A stretch of 64,000 bases of DNA from Gammaproteobacteria bacterium (lineage in GTDB: Bacteria > Pseudomonadota > Gammaproteobacteria > Xanthomonadales > Wenzhouxiangellaceae), in NCBI GenBank assembly GCA_021772975.1, contig JAJFKY010000012.1:124001-188000 (forward strand), in the 5' to 3' direction. The notes beneath the pieces were generated by a model. It did not search any database and had not been told where the DNA came from. It saw nothing but the letters and a program-made list of their open reading frames with translations. Below, in pieces: positions 28,136-35,523 of this stretch. The stretch's first letter is position 1, and each line of letters starts with the position of its first letter. Position numbers and translations under genes: made by a program.

Positions 28136-28371
28136 GCCTGAGGTTTTACTTGTTGATGCGGCCGATAGTCTAGCAGGGATAAGGCATAGTCAGCCAATGT
28201 CATCACTGCAGCCAAAGCGGCCGAGCTCTCTAAGCATGCCATCCTATTGCCGCCAGACCAAGACAAGCGGCATGATTTGATGCATAATGGGAAAATAATA
28301 ATGGTTAAAAACCGTTCACCAGTATAGGGCTAGTTTCGGCTCCATTTAAGATCAATTGCATGGGGATTAAA

Positions 28372-31300
28372 ATGCATAGCAAAGTGTTATCTTTCCGCTT
28401 CGGACTGTTTGGTCTGTTTGTTCTTTTCTCAGCTCAGGCCAATGCCCAAACTGTCAGCTATGACATTTTGCTTGATGTTGACCGTAATGCCAGTACCGGC
28501 TGTACGGTAACACCAATCGGCCAGGGCAACAGCAGCACCGGCTTTGAACGCAGAGTGCGGGCTATCGTTGACAGCGGCAGCATGACGGTTACCGAGGTCA
28601 ATCTCGCATTTTGCGAAGGCACTGGTTTCGGTCCTGCCACCGTCACCGGCGGGCCACACCCGGTCGGTTTGAACAATGGTGTGAACGGCACCGATGTCAT
28701 CGAGCTGTCGGCTTCGCTGAACAGTCTGCAGCCACTCAGCAACGGCGTTATTCAGATCACCGTTGCCGCTGAAGACGGTACCGGCTCCGATGTACTCTCA
28801 ACCACCACCGGGGCAGCGGGCGGCCAGCCGATTCTGGTATTCATTCCGATTGCGGTACCTGCGCTTGGCGCCCTGGGTTTGTTATTGCTGATCGCTGCCA
28901 TTGCGGTTATCACCGTGCGCGGCAGACAGCGCCGCTGGCTCAGCATCAGCCTGCTGGCTGCTTCGGGCATTGTATTTGCAGCCGGCTTTATCGTAGACGG
29001 CCAGGTGACCGACTGGGGTGGCGTTAACCCGGATGCGACCGATCCTGTCAACGACGCCACCAATGGTGCCGCCGGCAATGACCTGCAGGCGTTTTTTGTG
29101 GCTCTGGAACGTGATGTACTGTTTTTCCGCCTGGATGTCGGCGACCTGGAAAACCAACCACCAATAGCGGTTGATGACGCCTTCAATATGCTGGAAGACG
29201 ATACTCTTAACGTGGCGGCTCCCGGTGTGCTGAGTAATGACAGCGATCCGGATATGGACCCGATTACCGCCGAACTGGTCAGTGCTCCGGGCAACGCGCA
29301 GACCTTCAACCTGAATGCCGACGGCAGTTTCGACTATACCCCGACGGCGGATTTCAGCGGCACCGACAGTTTCACCTACAGCGCCTCTGACGGCATGAGC
29401 AGTTCTGATCCTGCCACGGTGACCATTACCATTGATCCGGTTAATGACGCACCCAGCTTTAACCTGCCCGGTGATGCCACCGTGCTGGAAGACGCCGGTG
29501 CTCAGAGTCTGGCGAATTTTGCTACCGCCATTTCCGCCGGGCCGCCTGATGAGTCCGGTCAGGCACTGACTTTTAACGTGACCAATAACGATAATGCCGC
29601 GTTGTTCGACGTATTGCCCGCTCTGAGCAGCACTGGCACGCTGACATTTACCGCGGCAGATGATGCCAATGGCACCGCCAATATCACCGTCGAATTAATG
29701 GACGATGGCGGCACCGCCAACGGCGGGGTGGATACTTCCGCGCCGCAGACTTTTGCCATCAACGTGACACCAGTCAATGACGCACCCAGCTTTACCGGCG
29801 GTCCCAATCAGACCGTATTGGAAGATGCCGGCGCCCAGAGTGTTGCCGGTTGGGCCATGGCCATCAGCCCCGGACCAGCCGATGAAGCCGGCCAGGCGCT
29901 GACCTTCAATGTAACCGCGAATGACAACGCTGCATTGTTCAGTGCCGGCCCGAGTGTCGCCGCTGATGGTACGCTGAGCTACACACCGGCTGACGACGCC
30001 AACGGCACCGCCAATATCACCATTGAGTTAATGGATGACGGCGGTACCGCCAACGTCGGGGTAGACACCTCCACACCGTTCAGCTTTGTTATCGACGTCA
30101 CTCCGGTCAATGATGCGCCGACATTCACCCCGTCCGGTGATGTCACCGCACTGGAAGATTCCACCGGCAGCAACGTGCCCTGGGCCAGTAATATCCTGCC
30201 CGGGCCGGCTACCGCCACGGATGAATCCGGCCAGATGCTGACCTTCAACATTACCGGCAATGACAATCCGGGATTGTTCAGCGCTGGGCCGGCACTGGAT
30301 GCGGCCACTGGCAATTTGAGCTTTACACCCGCGGCGGATGCCAGCGGTACCGCCAACATTACGGTTGAGCTGATGGATGACGGCGGTATGGCCAATGGCG
30401 GTGCAGATACTTCAGCACCGGTGACATTTGCGATCAACATTACGGAAGTCAACGACGCGCCCAGCTTCACGGCTCCGGCTGATCCGGCGGCCAGCAATGA
30501 AGACGCCGGCGCGCAAAGTCTGGCCTGGGCTTCAGCCATCAGTGCAGGGCCACCGTCGGAAGCCGGCCAGGCGCTGAACTTTATCCTGAACCAGACCAGC
30601 ATCGACAGCACGCTGTCATTCAGCACTGCGCCCAGCGTGAACCTGGCTACTGGCAATGTCGAATATACCGCGGCCGCTGATGCATATGGCACGGTCAGCT
30701 TTAATGTATTTCTTATGGATAATGGCGGCACCGCCAATGGTGGCATAGACACTTTTGGCCCGGTCGCTTTGACGATTACGGTTAACCCTGTCAATGATCC
30801 GCCCACCGCCGGTGCTGCGCCGACGTTTGGTGCCACCACCAATATCGGCCTGGATGTCCCTGCTGGTTCCGGCCTGCTGGCCGGCGCCAGTGATGATGCC
30901 ACCGAAGCGGCCGACCCGAATGGTCCGGCTGCCCCAGGCACCAATCTATCGGTCGGTAATGCCGGCAATCCAGCGCCGACCACTACCGCCATGGGTGGTG
31001 ATCTGAGCATCACGACCAGTACCGGTGCGTTTACCTACAACCCGCCGCCTGGTCTGGATAGCGGTTCGGACAGCTTCGATTTTGTGGTCTGTGATGACGG
31101 CATCCCGGGTCCTGGCGCATGCAGTGCGTCAGTCACGGTAACGATTAACCTGTCCGGCAATACCGTCTGGTTTATTGATGCGGCAGCAGCAGCTGGCGGT
31201 GATGGCCGTATTAATACGCCCTTTAACAGCATTGCAGCCTTCAACGCCCTGCAGGGCGGTGGCGGTACCGCCAATCCGGCGGCCGGAGATTTTATCTTCC

Positions 31301-33828
31301 TGTTCAGTGGCAATTACACCGGCAGTTTCTCACTGCTGGATAACCAGGTCCTGTTTGGTCAAGGCACCAGCGGCGTGACCTTTGATGCCTTTACCGGCAT
31401 CGCGCCACCCGCTGGCAGCACTGCCCGACCGGCACTGGGTGGAGCCGATCCGGTCATCAGCACCACCGCCGCGGCCAGTAATGCCATCAATGTGACCGGC
31501 AGTAATACCATTCGTGGTTTGAATATCGGCAATACCACCGGCTTCGGTATCGCAGGCACTTCGACCGGCACACTGGCTGTTAGTCAGGTCGATATTAATG
31601 GCACCGGGGGTCTGCTGGATATTGATGGCGGAGGCACCGGTATTTTAGGTGCGGTATTTGGCGCACTGACTTCCACCAGCAGTAATGTCCCGAATGTGAT
31701 CGACATCCAAAACTATGGAATTACCGATTTGCTGGCAACCAGCACTTCGATTCAGAGTCCGAGTCAGTCAGGCATTTTGCTGCAAAACAATGCTGGCGCC
31801 AGCGTGATCAATCTGGGTGATTTCAGCACCCTGTTGACCACCAACGGTGCTGGTTTTGTGGTGGCTAACAGCGGCACGGTAACCATCAGCCCGCCAGCAC
31901 CGGTCACCGTGCAGACCGTTGGTGGAGCAGCGCTGGACCTGGCCAACACCACCTTCAATGGCTTTAATTTCGGCAGCATCTCCGCCAATACCACCACCAC
32001 CGGTGTCAGCCTTAATAATGTCAGCGGCTTTATCAGCAGTGGCGGAGGTAACATCCAGAATACCAGCGGTGATGCATTTGTGATCACCGGTGGCAGCAGC
32101 GGCGTTACTTATGGCGGCACCATTACCAATACCGCAGCTCGCTCGGTAGTGGTTACTGGGCACACCGGTAGCAATGTTGTGTTTAACCCGATCAATGACA
32201 GCGCTCAGGGTGTGTTTCTAAATAACAATGCAGGCACCAGCTTCTTCTTCGCCGGCACCATGACCCTGAACACTGGCGCCAATAATGCATTTACCGCCAG
32301 CAACGGCGGTACGATCGACGCTACCGGCAACGGCAGCAGCATCACCACCACCACCGGCGTAGGCATAACTATCGATGGTGTCAGCATCCGCAACACCAAC
32401 TTTACCGTGCAATCGGTGTCAGCCAATGGCGCCAGCAGCGGCATTGTGCTGAATAACACCGGTACCGCTGGTGGCCTGACCGTGACCGGTGATGGCAGCA
32501 ATAACCGCAATGGCTCGGGTGGCACGATTCAGAATACTCTGAGTCACGGCATTAGCTTGAACCAGACCAGCAATACCCGCCTGGCATCCATGAATGTGCT
32601 TAATCCAGGCGCGGGCGCACTGGGTCTCGAAACCGGCCATGCTATTCGCATTCGCGATCTGTCCGGCGCCAGCAATCTGTTCAATGGTTTGACCCTGGAA
32701 GCAGGCTCTAACTCAGGTGACGACGGTGTCGAGCTGATCAACACCAACACCAATCTGGGTACTTTCACCAATGCCACTACCCCGGTCAGCGGTGGCTTAA
32801 CGGTAACCAATAGCCTGTTTGATGGTTCGCCCACCTCCGACGGCTTCTTCGCGGAAGCTCGCGGAGCATCCAATATGGGCGTCATCATTAATGGCGGTTC
32901 GCGCTTTACCGATATCCGCGGAGACGGCATACAGATATCCACCGGCGGTTTAGCCGGTGATACGCATCGCTTCGATGTGATGATCTTGAATTCTCAGCTG
33001 GATACCGCGTCCGTGCCGGCGCCAGGTGGCAACAACGGTATTGCACTGGGCGCCGCCGAGCCTACCCAGATTAACTTTATGATCAGCGGTAATACCATTT
33101 TTGATGTGACTCGAGGCGGCAGCAATGCCGGCGCCGTTAATGTGGTTACCGCAGGTAACAACTCACTGTATACCGGCACGGTTGAAACCACTGATATGGA
33201 TGATACCGGTGACCAGCGTGGTAACAACTTCGTGTTCGAGGGCACCTCTGGTGTACAGAACAGAGGGCATGACGTTGTTATCGATAACAATGACATTGAT
33301 GAGACCCTGCGCGAAGGCACTTTCCTGACGGTTTCCGGTGGCAACGCGGTCACTAATACTGACTTTGTGGTTACCAACAACAGGATTGGCACGGCGTCTC
33401 CGGTCGGCACCACCACGCGCGAAAGTTTCGAAATCGATGTCTTTGGAGTCGGGGCATTCCCGACGCATGAGGCGGATTTCCTGGTGGATAACAATACCCA
33501 TGTCAACAATGGTGACCGTGAAGTCGCTGATATGGCATTTGAGCGCAACGCCAATATTAATCTGATCGTCACCAATAACACCTTTACTCAATCGGGCGCC
33601 GGTGCGGAAGAAGTCGAATTCGATAGTTTTGATGCCGGGGTGAATCTGTGTCTGCACCTGGACAACAACACCGTTCCGGATGGTGCTGGCAATGAGTACG
33701 ATCTGGATGAACTGGCTGGTACATTTACTTTACAGAGCCTGGCGGATGTGGGCACACGCAATGCAGGCAATATCGATGTGGGAGCAGGCATTACCAACGC
33801 CCCAGCCAACTGTACGGCACCTAACTAA
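28372..33828 (+). CDS. Giant secreted repeat and beta-helix protein (1818 aa)
   Basis: A very large exported, adhesin-like protein of unknown role. Signal peptide to about residue 25 (SAQANA). Residues about 154-187 are an IPTL-CTERM-like tripartite segment: VPALGALGLLLLIAA, then a basic cluster RGRQRR. A second hydrophobic stretch (188-209) follows. From about 261 comes a cadherin-like domain (PPIAVDDAFNMLEDDTLNV), then four tandem repeats of about 112 residues (357-805), another cadherin-like domain, and from about 932 a long Asn/Gly/Thr-rich parallel beta-helix region to the C-terminus. No autotransporter barrel or C-terminal anchor is seen. The start is set at 28372, where GGGGA lies 5 bases upstream; the frame is open from an ATG at 28360. 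It is upstream of the collar-protein genes. Confidence 0.85.
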   Translation: MHSKVLSFRFGLFGLFVLFSAQANAQTVSYDILLDVDRNASTGCTVTPIGQGNSSTGFERRVRAIVDSGSMTVTEVNLAFCEGTGFGPATVTGGPHPVGLNNGVNGTDVIELSASLNSLQPLSNGVIQITVAAEDGTGSDVLSTTTGAAGGQPILVFIPIAVPALGALGLLLLIAAIAVITVRGRQRRWLSISLLAASGIVFAAGFIVDGQVTDWGGVNPDATDPVNDATNGAAGNDLQAFFVALERDVLFFRLDVGDLENQPPIAVDDAFNMLEDDTLNVAAPGVLSNDSDPDMDPITAELVSAPGNAQTFNLNADGSFDYTPTADFSGTDSFTYSASDGMSSSDPATVTITIDPVNDAPSFNLPGDATVLEDAGAQSLANFATAISAGPPDESGQALTFNVTNNDNAALFDVLPALSSTGTLTFTAADDANGTANITVELMDDGGTANGGVDTSAPQTFAINVTPVNDAPSFTGGPNQTVLEDAGAQSVAGWAMAISPGPADEAGQALTFNVTANDNAALFSAGPSVAADGTLSYTPADDANGTANITIELMDDGGTANVGVDTSTPFSFVIDVTPVNDAPTFTPSGDVTALEDSTGSNVPWASNILPGPATATDESGQMLTFNITGNDNPGLFSAGPALDAATGNLSFTPAADASGTANITVELMDDGGMANGGADTSAPVTFAINITEVNDAPSFTAPADPAASNEDAGAQSLAWASAISAGPPSEAGQALNFILNQTSIDSTLSFSTAPSVNLATGNVEYTAAADAYGTVSFNVFLMDNGGTANGGIDTFGPVALTITVNPVNDPPTAGAAPTFGATTNIGLDVPAGSGLLAGASDDATEAADPNGPAAPGTNLSVGNAGNPAPTTTAMGGDLSITTSTGAFTYNPPPGLDSGSDSFDFVVCDDGIPGPGACSASVTVTINLSGNTVWFIDAAAAAGGDGRINTPFNSIAAFNALQGGGGTANPAAGDFIFLFSGNYTGSFSLLDNQVLFGQGTSGVTFDAFTGIAPPAGSTARPALGGADPVISTTAAASNAINVTGSNTIRGLNIGNTTGFGIAGTSTGTLAVSQVDINGTGGLLDIDGGGTGILGAVFGALTSTSSNVPNVIDIQNYGITDLLATSTSIQSPSQSGILLQNNAGASVINLGDFSTLLTTNGAGFVVANSGTVTISPPAPVTVQTVGGAALDLANTTFNGFNFGSISANTTTTGVSLNNVSGFISSGGGNIQNTSGDAFVITGGSSGVTYGGTITNTAARSVVVTGHTGSNVVFNPINDSAQGVFLNNNAGTSFFFAGTMTLNTGANNAFTASNGGTIDATGNGSSITTTTGVGITIDGVSIRNTNFTVQSVSANGASSGIVLNNTGTAGGLTVTGDGSNNRNGSGGTIQNTLSHGISLNQTSNTRLASMNVLNPGAGALGLETGHAIRIRDLSGASNLFNGLTLEAGSNSGDDGVELINTNTNLGTFTNATTPVSGGLTVTNSLFDGSPTSDGFFAEARGASNMGVIINGGSRFTDIRGDGIQISTGGLAGDTHRFDVMILNSQLDTASVPAPGGNNGIALGAAEPTQINFMISGNTIFDVTRGGSNAGAVNVVTAGNNSLYTGTVETTDMDDTGDQRGNNFVFEGTSGVQNRGHDVVIDNNDIDETLREGTFLTVSGGNAVTNTDFVVTNNRIGTASPVGTTTRESFEIDVFGVGAFPTHEADFLVDNNTHVNNGDREVADMAFERNANINLIVTNNTFTQSGAGAEEVEFDSFDAGVNLCLHLDNNTVPDGAGNEYDLDELAGTFTLQSLADVGTRNAGNIDVGAGITNAPANCTAPN
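29440..30790 (+). repeat. Four tandem ~340-bp coding repeats
   Basis: Within the giant gene, units begin at about 29440, 29775, 30106 and 30450, each opening with the codons for VNDAPxF and containing ANITVELMDDGG near its end. Units are about 112 codons. The first three are the most alike; the fourth is more diverged. They encode Ig/cadherin-like modules and are prone to copy-number change by recombination. Confidence 0.85.
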
Positions 33829-33880: not shown

Positions 33881-33951
33881 ACTAGCGGGCCGTCTGGGTG
33901 CCTACATGGATCGTTTCCCATGACATCATAACAACAACAGGAGAAGACAAT

Positions 33952-34467
33952 ATGTCAGAACCATTCTTAGCCGAGGTGCGGATTGTTGGATTCAATTTCG
34001 CGCCGCGGGGATGGGCGTTCTGCGATGGGCAAATACTTCCCATCAATCAAAACCAGTCCCTGTATTCACTTTTGGGCACCACCTATGGTGGTGATGGGCG
34101 AACCAGCTTTGCATTGCCAGATATGCGTGGGCGTACACCAATGCATACCGGCAGAAGCAATGGTGGTGGTGAGCACAGGCTGGGGCAAAAGTCTGGCGAA
34201 GAAACACACACGCTGGCCGCCAACGAGATGCCTCAACACAATCATTCGCTGCAGGCCACCAATACTGCCGCAACCAGCACGGACCCTACCGGTCGGGTGC
34301 TGGCGCAATCCGTGCGAGACACTTACCGTGAGTTAACCAACTCTGTCAGTATGGGTTCAGGCACGGTCGCAAGTGTTGGTGGTGGGCAGGCGCATGAAAA
34401 CATGCAGCCTTATCTGGCGATGAATTTTTGCATAGCCCTGCAGGGCTTGTTTCCGTCACGTAACTAA
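33952..34467 (+). CDS. Phage tail collar domain protein, copy 1
   Basis: A small protein of the tail Collar family (also called microcystin-dependent protein-like). It opens MSEPFLAEVRIVGFNFAPRG, then WAFCDGQ and LLGTTYGGDGRTSFALPDMR, the collar-domain signature, and ends FPSRN. An HxH motif (PQHNHSL) lies near residue 99; in phage fibre tips such motifs bind metal. 171 residues. The frame is open further upstream, but GGAG before the ATG at 33952 and exact alignment with the two paralogues fix the start. No secretion signal. Three paralogues follow one another with 10-14 base gaps and no other phage genes are nearby, so this is probably a domesticated set. Confidence 0.88.
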   Translation: MSEPFLAEVRIVGFNFAPRGWAFCDGQILPINQNQSLYSLLGTTYGGDGRTSFALPDMRGRTPMHTGRSNGGGEHRLGQKSGEETHTLAANEMPQHNHSLQATNTAATSTDPTGRVLAQSVRDTYRELTNSVSMGSGTVASVGGGQAHENMQPYLAMNFCIALQGLFPSRN

Positions 34468-34481
34468 TCAGGAGAACCATC

Positions 34482-35000
34482 ATGTCAGAACCATTTGTCG
34501 GTGAAGTCCGCATGTTTGCGGGCAACTTCGCACCACGTGGCTGGGCATTTTGTGATGGACAGCTCCTGGCTGTTTCACAAAATGACGCTTTATTCAGTCT
34601 CTTGGGCACCATTTATGGCGGCGATGGCCGCACCACTTTCGGGCTACCGGATTTGCGCGGCCGTATACCTATCCATGCAGGCAACGGACCTGGTCTGAGC
34701 CAGCGCAGGCTGGGCGCCAAAGGCGGCGCGGAAAACGTCACTTTGACGGTCAATCAATTACCGAGCCACACACACCCTGCGCAAGCCTCTGACGCACCAG
34801 CGAGCGAACTTTTGCCGGTAGGCCGGGCGCCTGGCGTGGCACAGGCTCAGGCCTATGGTGACCGCCTGCTGGGTCCGGTCAATATGAATACTCAAGCCAT
34901 TACCAGTGTTGGCGGCAGTCGTAGTCATACCAATGAAATGCCCTACCTGTGTGTGAATTTTATTATTGCTTTAGTCGGCATTTATCCTTCCCGTCAATAG
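34482..35000 (+). CDS. Phage tail collar domain protein, copy 2
   Basis: Second collar paralogue, 172 residues. Opening MSEPFVGEVRMFAGNFAPRG, then WAFCDGQLLAVSQN, LLGTIYGGDGRTTFGLPDLR, an HxH motif in PSHTHPA, and the terminal YPSRQ. The variable segment after the HxH motif (about 100-145) differs strongly from copies 1 and 3, as expected if it is the specificity-determining part. AGGAG is placed 9 bases before the ATG. It is 14 bases after copy 1 and 10 before copy 3, so these are clearly one transcription unit. Confidence 0.88.
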   Translation: MSEPFVGEVRMFAGNFAPRGWAFCDGQLLAVSQNDALFSLLGTIYGGDGRTTFGLPDLRGRIPIHAGNGPGLSQRRLGAKGGAENVTLTVNQLPSHTHPAQASDAPASELLPVGRAPGVAQAQAYGDRLLGPVNMNTQAITSVGGSRSHTNEMPYLCVNFIIALVGIYPSRQ

Positions 35001-35010
35001 GAGACTTACC

Positions 35011-35523
35011 ATGTCAGAACCATTTGTTGCAGAAATAAGAATTTTTGCTGGTAATTTTGCTCCTCGGGGCTGGGCATTTTGTAATGGCCAGTTACTGCCG
35101 GTGTCGCAAAATACCGCGTTGTTTTCGTTGATCGGAACCACCTATGGCGGTGATGGACGCAGCACCACCGCACTGCCCAATCTGCAGGGCCGCGCGCCGA
35201 TGCACCCTGGCCGTGGGCCAGGCTTAACATCGAGACGCCTGGGTCAAAGAGGTGGCGTTGAACAAGTCACGCTCAGCGAAGCTCAGATGCCTAACCATAA
35301 TCATACCCTGATAGGCGAAGAAAACGATGGCAGAGTGCTGTCACCCAATGGCGGTTTTTTTGCTACCGGTGAGCAAATGTACCATTCACCCGACAACCTT
35401 GGTGATATGGCATCCACCATTTTGCCAAATACAGGCGGCAGCCAGTCGCATAACAATTTGCAACCGTACCTGGTAATGAACTTTATTATCGCACTGGTCG
35501 GTTTGTATCCATCACGCGGTTAA
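35011..35523 (+). CDS. Phage tail collar domain protein, copy 3
   Basis: Third collar paralogue, 170 residues. Opening MSEPFVAEIRIFAGNFAPRG, WAFCNGQLLPVSQN, LIGTTYGGDGRSTTALPNLQ, HxH in PNHNHTL, ending YPSRG. It is closest to copy 2 in the first 90 residues and carries a distinct variable segment. AGGAG precedes the ATG. It is followed after 15 bases by a small exported protein. Biological role unknown; collar domains in phages sit at the base or tip of fibres and mediate receptor contact. Confidence 0.88.
   Translation: MSEPFVAEIRIFAGNFAPRGWAFCNGQLLPVSQNTALFSLIGTTYGGDGRSTTALPNLQGRAPMHPGRGPGLTSRRLGQRGGVEQVTLSEAQMPNHNHTLIGEENDGRVLSPNGGFFATGEQMYHSPDNLGDMASTILPNTGGSQSHNNLQPYLVMNFIIALVGLYPSRG

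Follow-up and report, generated by a model that had tools for sequence, protein, structure and literature searches.

Exosortase signals have been described as C-terminal tags, and C-terminal sorting signals share a tripartite architecture of a motif, a hydrophobic helix and a basic cluster (PMC3237569). All three elements are found near the opposite end of a giant exported protein encoded in the 64,000-nucleotide stretch of DNA analyzed here (the window). An earlier note on this DNA had pointed out a PxL-hydrophobic-basic segment close to the N-terminus of the protein, and the segment is indeed present at residues 166–192 of 1822, with more than 1600 residues downstream of it. This raises the question of whether a segment so placed is a processing signal, a membrane anchor or the trace of a gene fusion.

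The open reading frame of the giant spans 28360–33828 on the plus strand, where its parts and its three downstream neighbours described below also lie, and encodes 1822 amino acids; the start given in the earlier note, 28372, is the in-frame Met5. Residues 1–29 (28360–28446, with Met5 at 28372 as an alternative start) form a predicted N-terminal signal peptide with a likely cut at ANA|QTVSYD, and a hydrophobic stretch followed by AxA|Q occurs in nearly all of 62 homologues. The signal peptide is followed by a beta-rich domain A (residues 30–157; 28447–28830), delimited by alignment and modelled by AlphaFold with a pLDDT of about 70–91. Columns D39, D41, G47, C48, G61, C85 and E115, including both cysteines, are invariant in a 41-member alignment of this domain. 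Domain B, FIVDGQVTDWGG...LFFRLDV (residues 208–265; 28981–29154), was defined from AlphaFold and from conserved positions (W219 in 62/62 homologues, G214 in 60/62 and D213 in 59/62). Cadherin-like or tandem-95 (Big_9) repeats then occupy about residues 266–933 (29155–31158), as indicated by matches to Pfam Big_9 (84.5 bits) and Cadherin_5 (62.4 bits) and to the NCBIfam tandem-95 model NF012211 (122.7 bits). The C-terminal part (residues 934–1822; 31159–33828) reads as right-handed beta-helix-like and has no Pfam match. Neither a C-terminal sorting signal nor an autotransporter barrel was seen in the giant protein, and the autotransporter model PF03797 has no match in it or anywhere in the window genome.

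Between domains A and B lie two hydrophobic segments. TM1, the IPTL-like VPALGALGLLLLIAAIAVITVR (residues 166–187; 28855–28920), begins with VPALG at residue 166 (nucleotide 28855) and lies within a match to the NCBIfam model NF033207 at residues 152–208. It runs into the basic loop RGRQRR, which begins at residue 187 (residues 187–192; 28918–28935) and is predicted to be cytoplasmic from the charge pattern of the 62 homologues. Directly after the loop comes TM2, WLSISLLAASGIVFA (residues 193–207; 28936–28980), which the earlier note did not mention and which hydropathy and the 62-homologue alignment suggest is an internal signal-peptide-like helix. The suggestion that the segment acts as a membrane stop is thus incomplete: TM1 is hydrophobic and has a basic tail, but it is followed directly by a signal-peptide-like TM2 with a conserved [AV]-x-[AGS] end, which makes this a hairpin of two helices rather than a single stop. 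We refer to the ordered set of signal peptide, domain A, IPTL-like TM1, basic loop, TM2 and domain B as the module.

The hairpin is highly conserved. P167 is invariant in 62/62 aligned modules, is preceded by isoleucine or valine in 60 and is accompanied by glycine, serine or threonine at position 170 in all; position 177 is leucine or methionine in 60/62. The P167 motif in TM1 is treated here as a candidate exosortase H site. The net charge of residues 184–196 is +2 or higher in every one of the 62 homologues, with a mean of +3.7, and the outer flanks are negative on average, as expected for a hairpin whose loop lies in the cytoplasm. At the end of TM2, position 205 is alanine or valine and position 207 is alanine, glycine or serine in 62/62 homologues, with 40–46 residues between P167 and the −1 residue. 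In a scan of 231 positions, 205/207 was the sole pair to obey the signal-peptidase (−3,−1) rule in every copy (87% for the next best pair), and this defines a candidate signal peptidase I site at V205-F-A207|A208 (28972–28983). A position matrix derived from the N-terminal signal peptides of the family itself, and dominated by glutamine at +1, did not single out the TM2 site, which ranked first within its local window in just 24/62 homologues (mean score −1.65 versus 10.7 in training). We report both outcomes and rely on the simpler (−3,−1) test, from which a signal peptidase step at the end of TM2 is plausible.

The resemblance of the segment to known sorting signals is more than chance, as judged by the conservation at P167 and position 177 and by a six-frame search of the window genome with NF033207 (midcut-by-XrtH). 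In that search a paralogue on contig C20 was the best match (E = 4.2e-6) and the window protein was fifth (E = 1.6e-4); the other matches were mostly C-terminal signals. NF033207 also matched 35 of 41 diverse module members (best 1.9e-10), and an hhalign comparison of the giant hairpin with the NF033207 hairpin, including a short strand before the motif, gave E = 4.8e-5 and a probability of 68%. Against the curated cut-off of 45 bits, the window protein scored 18.1–22.7 bits and the best giant relative 39.9 bits. The IPTL-CTERM model TIGR04174 (cut-off 20.5 bits) weakly matched 11 of the 41 members, with E values up to 10; the paralogue reached 14.1 bits and the window hairpin was not listed. 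Comparison with sorting profiles, which the earlier note had proposed, thus yielded a match to NF033207, although none of the sorting models, TIGR04174 included, scored the window protein as high as its curated cut-off.

The giants and the NF033207 proteins share a layout, in which a signal peptide, a mid-protein IPTL-like TM1, a basic loop and a second hydrophobic segment are followed by an exported domain. Both also have a G-x-x-I/Y-x-G strand before the motif and occur in genomes with exosortase H (XrtH). However, the over-cutoff NF033207 members in the order are short (most frames 165–212 amino acids, two of 396–398 and one of 354); their hairpin is preceded by only about 20 residues and followed by a different domain, which contains Cys, whereas the giants have a 125-residue domain A, a domain B, a length of 1600–3500 amino acids and scores under the cut-off. 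Two of the longer midcut-by-XrtH proteins, at L057 and L060 (genomes G070 and G181; frames of 354 and 398 amino acids), carry an extra Cys-rich domain behind the usual one. Judged by sequence, NF033207 is the closest described family and the window protein is a relative with a new architecture, not a member. With IPTL-CTERM proteins the giant shares the Pro-x-Leu motif, hydrophobic helix and basic cluster, as well as the cognate XrtH in its genome, but its signal lies near the N-terminus and is followed by a second helix and the bulk of the protein. In the collection of papers searched, none dealt with midcut-by-XrtH, XrtH, IPTL-CTERM or tail-collar operons.

The earlier note had also suggested searching the genome for an exosortase. 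An exosortase H gene is present in the window genome (TIGR04177, 197.7 bits; cut-off 86), as are five over-cutoff IPTL_CTERM matches along with several IPTL-like ends read directly. Three C-terminal IPTL-type genes are clustered on contig C1, with one other gene between them (L017, 3554–7303). Together with the match to the midcut-by-XrtH model, the enzyme and these many C-terminal IPTL-type proteins bear out the likeness to IPTL/exosortase-type signals that was first noted.

To survey the module we used a profile of two N-termini, those of the window protein and of the C20 paralogue, which has the same layout, hairpin and motif and is 56–57% identical over the first 265 residues. Of the 299 genomes sampled from the order, 57 were picked up by this search, or 55 after removal of G133 and G173. 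They represent 21 of 85 genera, and the module stands at the start of giants, mostly frames of about 1600–3500 amino acids. Weak survey matches in G148, G028, G133 and G173 are not the module; that of G133 is an ordinary C-terminal IPTL-type protein. Outside the order, the module was found in two genomes (G495 and G651) of a class-wide sample of 369. Every clear domain-A match in the 299 order and 369 class genomes either belongs to a whole module or is truncated where its contig stops; the latter holds for the short domain-A frames of G015 and G011, which are not stand-alone proteins. The earlier note had envisaged that a short ancestral protein might have been joined to a long adhesin, but no short protein ending at the motif was found in either set of genomes. 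The module is a conserved architecture, not a one-off fusion.

XrtH is present in 53 of the 55 module genomes compared with 99 of the 244 others (Fisher 6e-16, kinship ignored). In one genome (G138) XrtH was found only as a fragment, and counting it as absent changes the value to 1e-14; no XrtH was detected in two module genomes, G168 (85% complete) and G045 (80% complete). At the genus level, XrtH occurs in 21/21 module genera versus 27/64 others (5e-7, kinship again ignored), and both class-level outliers, G495 and G651, have XrtH. The co-occurrence of module and XrtH is partly confounded by lineage.

The placement of the hairpin between two domains led us to consider whether A and B belong together. 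An AlphaFold model of residues 28–268 had a pLDDT of 75 and a pTM of 0.72, with domain A confident and the hairpin partly disordered. The domain B strands were modelled beside A at pLDDT 71–85, whereas the same residues modelled without A fell to 42–67, with the first 34 below 50; the alignments behind these runs held only 8 and 7 sequences. Sequence and fold searches of the PDB returned nothing firm, and weak matches to beta sandwiches (Z below 5) span model residues 2–222, that is, domain A plus one strand of B. These models suggest a single domain, made up of A and B, with the hairpin inserted into it. A related protein, L109 of genome G372 (1–1428), contains two B-like VDGxVSDW segments, each followed by an A-like DNNAKTG motif, and is perhaps an unsplit, permuted form of the A/B domain. 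We do not claim a circular permutation (B then A) in L109: its match to B is clear, but that to A is only marginal (hmmsearch 0.0021, hhalign probability 4.9%).

With moderate confidence, we read the segment as a mid-protein XrtH-type processing signal which, together with an internal signal peptide, lies inside a split domain and serves to anchor a giant adhesin. The N-terminal signal peptide would export domain A, and the IPTL-like TM1 would then stop transfer with its basic tail left in the cytoplasm. This tail would double as the positive n-region of TM2, which would restart export in the manner of an internal signal peptide. XrtH would process the VPALG motif and signal peptidase I might cut at VFA|A, yielding an A chain handled like any XrtH substrate and a B-adhesin chain of roughly 1600 residues. 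Given that A and B seem to make up a single fold, the two chains would stay clasped after cutting, so that the giant adhesin could be retained at the envelope by the sorted A chain through the A/B clasp, presumably with display at the surface. The fuller form of this idea, in which the hairpin carrying both sites is removable and the sorted N-terminal half holds the adhesin non-covalently in place of an autotransporter barrel, is tentative and we give it a limited chance.

Alternatively, the hairpin might never be cut, TM1 and TM2 holding the protein in the inner membrane while A, B and the repeats lie in the periplasm, and the IPTL likeness reflecting common helix-start features. Two hydrophobic helices and a positive loop would suffice for a stable anchor, and the sorting-model scores do lie under the cut-offs. 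However, a plain anchor needs neither the invariant proline nor the strict [AV]-x-[AGS] end, and it sits poorly with the strong tie to XrtH, which extends outside the order, and with the NF033207 matches in most members; we consider it unlikely. The name midcut points to another reading, in which XrtH alone cuts at TM1, and TM2, left uncut, keeps anchoring the N-terminus of the giant chain in the inner membrane. This reading agrees with the co-occurrence with XrtH and with the hairpin's homology to NF033207 members, but it leaves the perfect (−3,−1) rule at the TM2 end unaccounted for, and it is in our view improbable. Although the layout reads as if one exported protein ended and another began, with a signal-peptide-like TM2, a fusion of a short IPTL-CTERM protein (A) to a signal-peptide-bearing adhesin (B plus repeats) is hardly credible: no separate A protein was found in the 299 order or 369 class genomes, A and B appear to co-fold, and the module is kept across 21 genera and beyond, so that its junction is not a relic.

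Directly 3′ of the giant are three tandem phage tail-collar genes, at 33898–34467, 34482–35000 and 35011–35523 (PF07484, 98.2, 103.3 and 96.9 bits, respectively), in none of which a signal peptide is obvious. These are conserved neighbours, with order and strand kept in most relatives from many genera, and the trio follows the giant in 13 of 18 sampled relatives. The trio is also found at L048 and L050, and at least one or two collars lie within the examined DNA at L052 and L071. Among 16 XrtH-less genomes, two (G060 and G067) have the trio, and in both it adjoins a divergently oriented giant Ig-repeat autotransporter (PF03797, 176–193 bits) that lacks the hairpin (L134, 7938–14493, and L135, the latter in reverse orientation). 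Type V autotransporter adhesins thus resemble the module proteins as giant Ig/cadherin-repeat proteins beside the same collar trio, but differ in being anchored by a C-terminal barrel. From these two loci, it is possible that the autotransporter is an alternative anchor for the same system. Such an anchor swap is suggestive only, since some XrtH genomes have giant autotransporters elsewhere in the genome.

Thus, a signal type described from C-termini has a conserved mid-protein version that fronts giant adhesins and is tied to XrtH. If our reading is correct, exosortases can process internal sites, and the giants constitute a testable class of XrtH substrates. The conserved link to the three tail-collar genes additionally provides an entry to a widespread operon. 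If A and B stay joined after cutting, the module would also be a novel route by which a very large protein is attached to a Gram-negative envelope.
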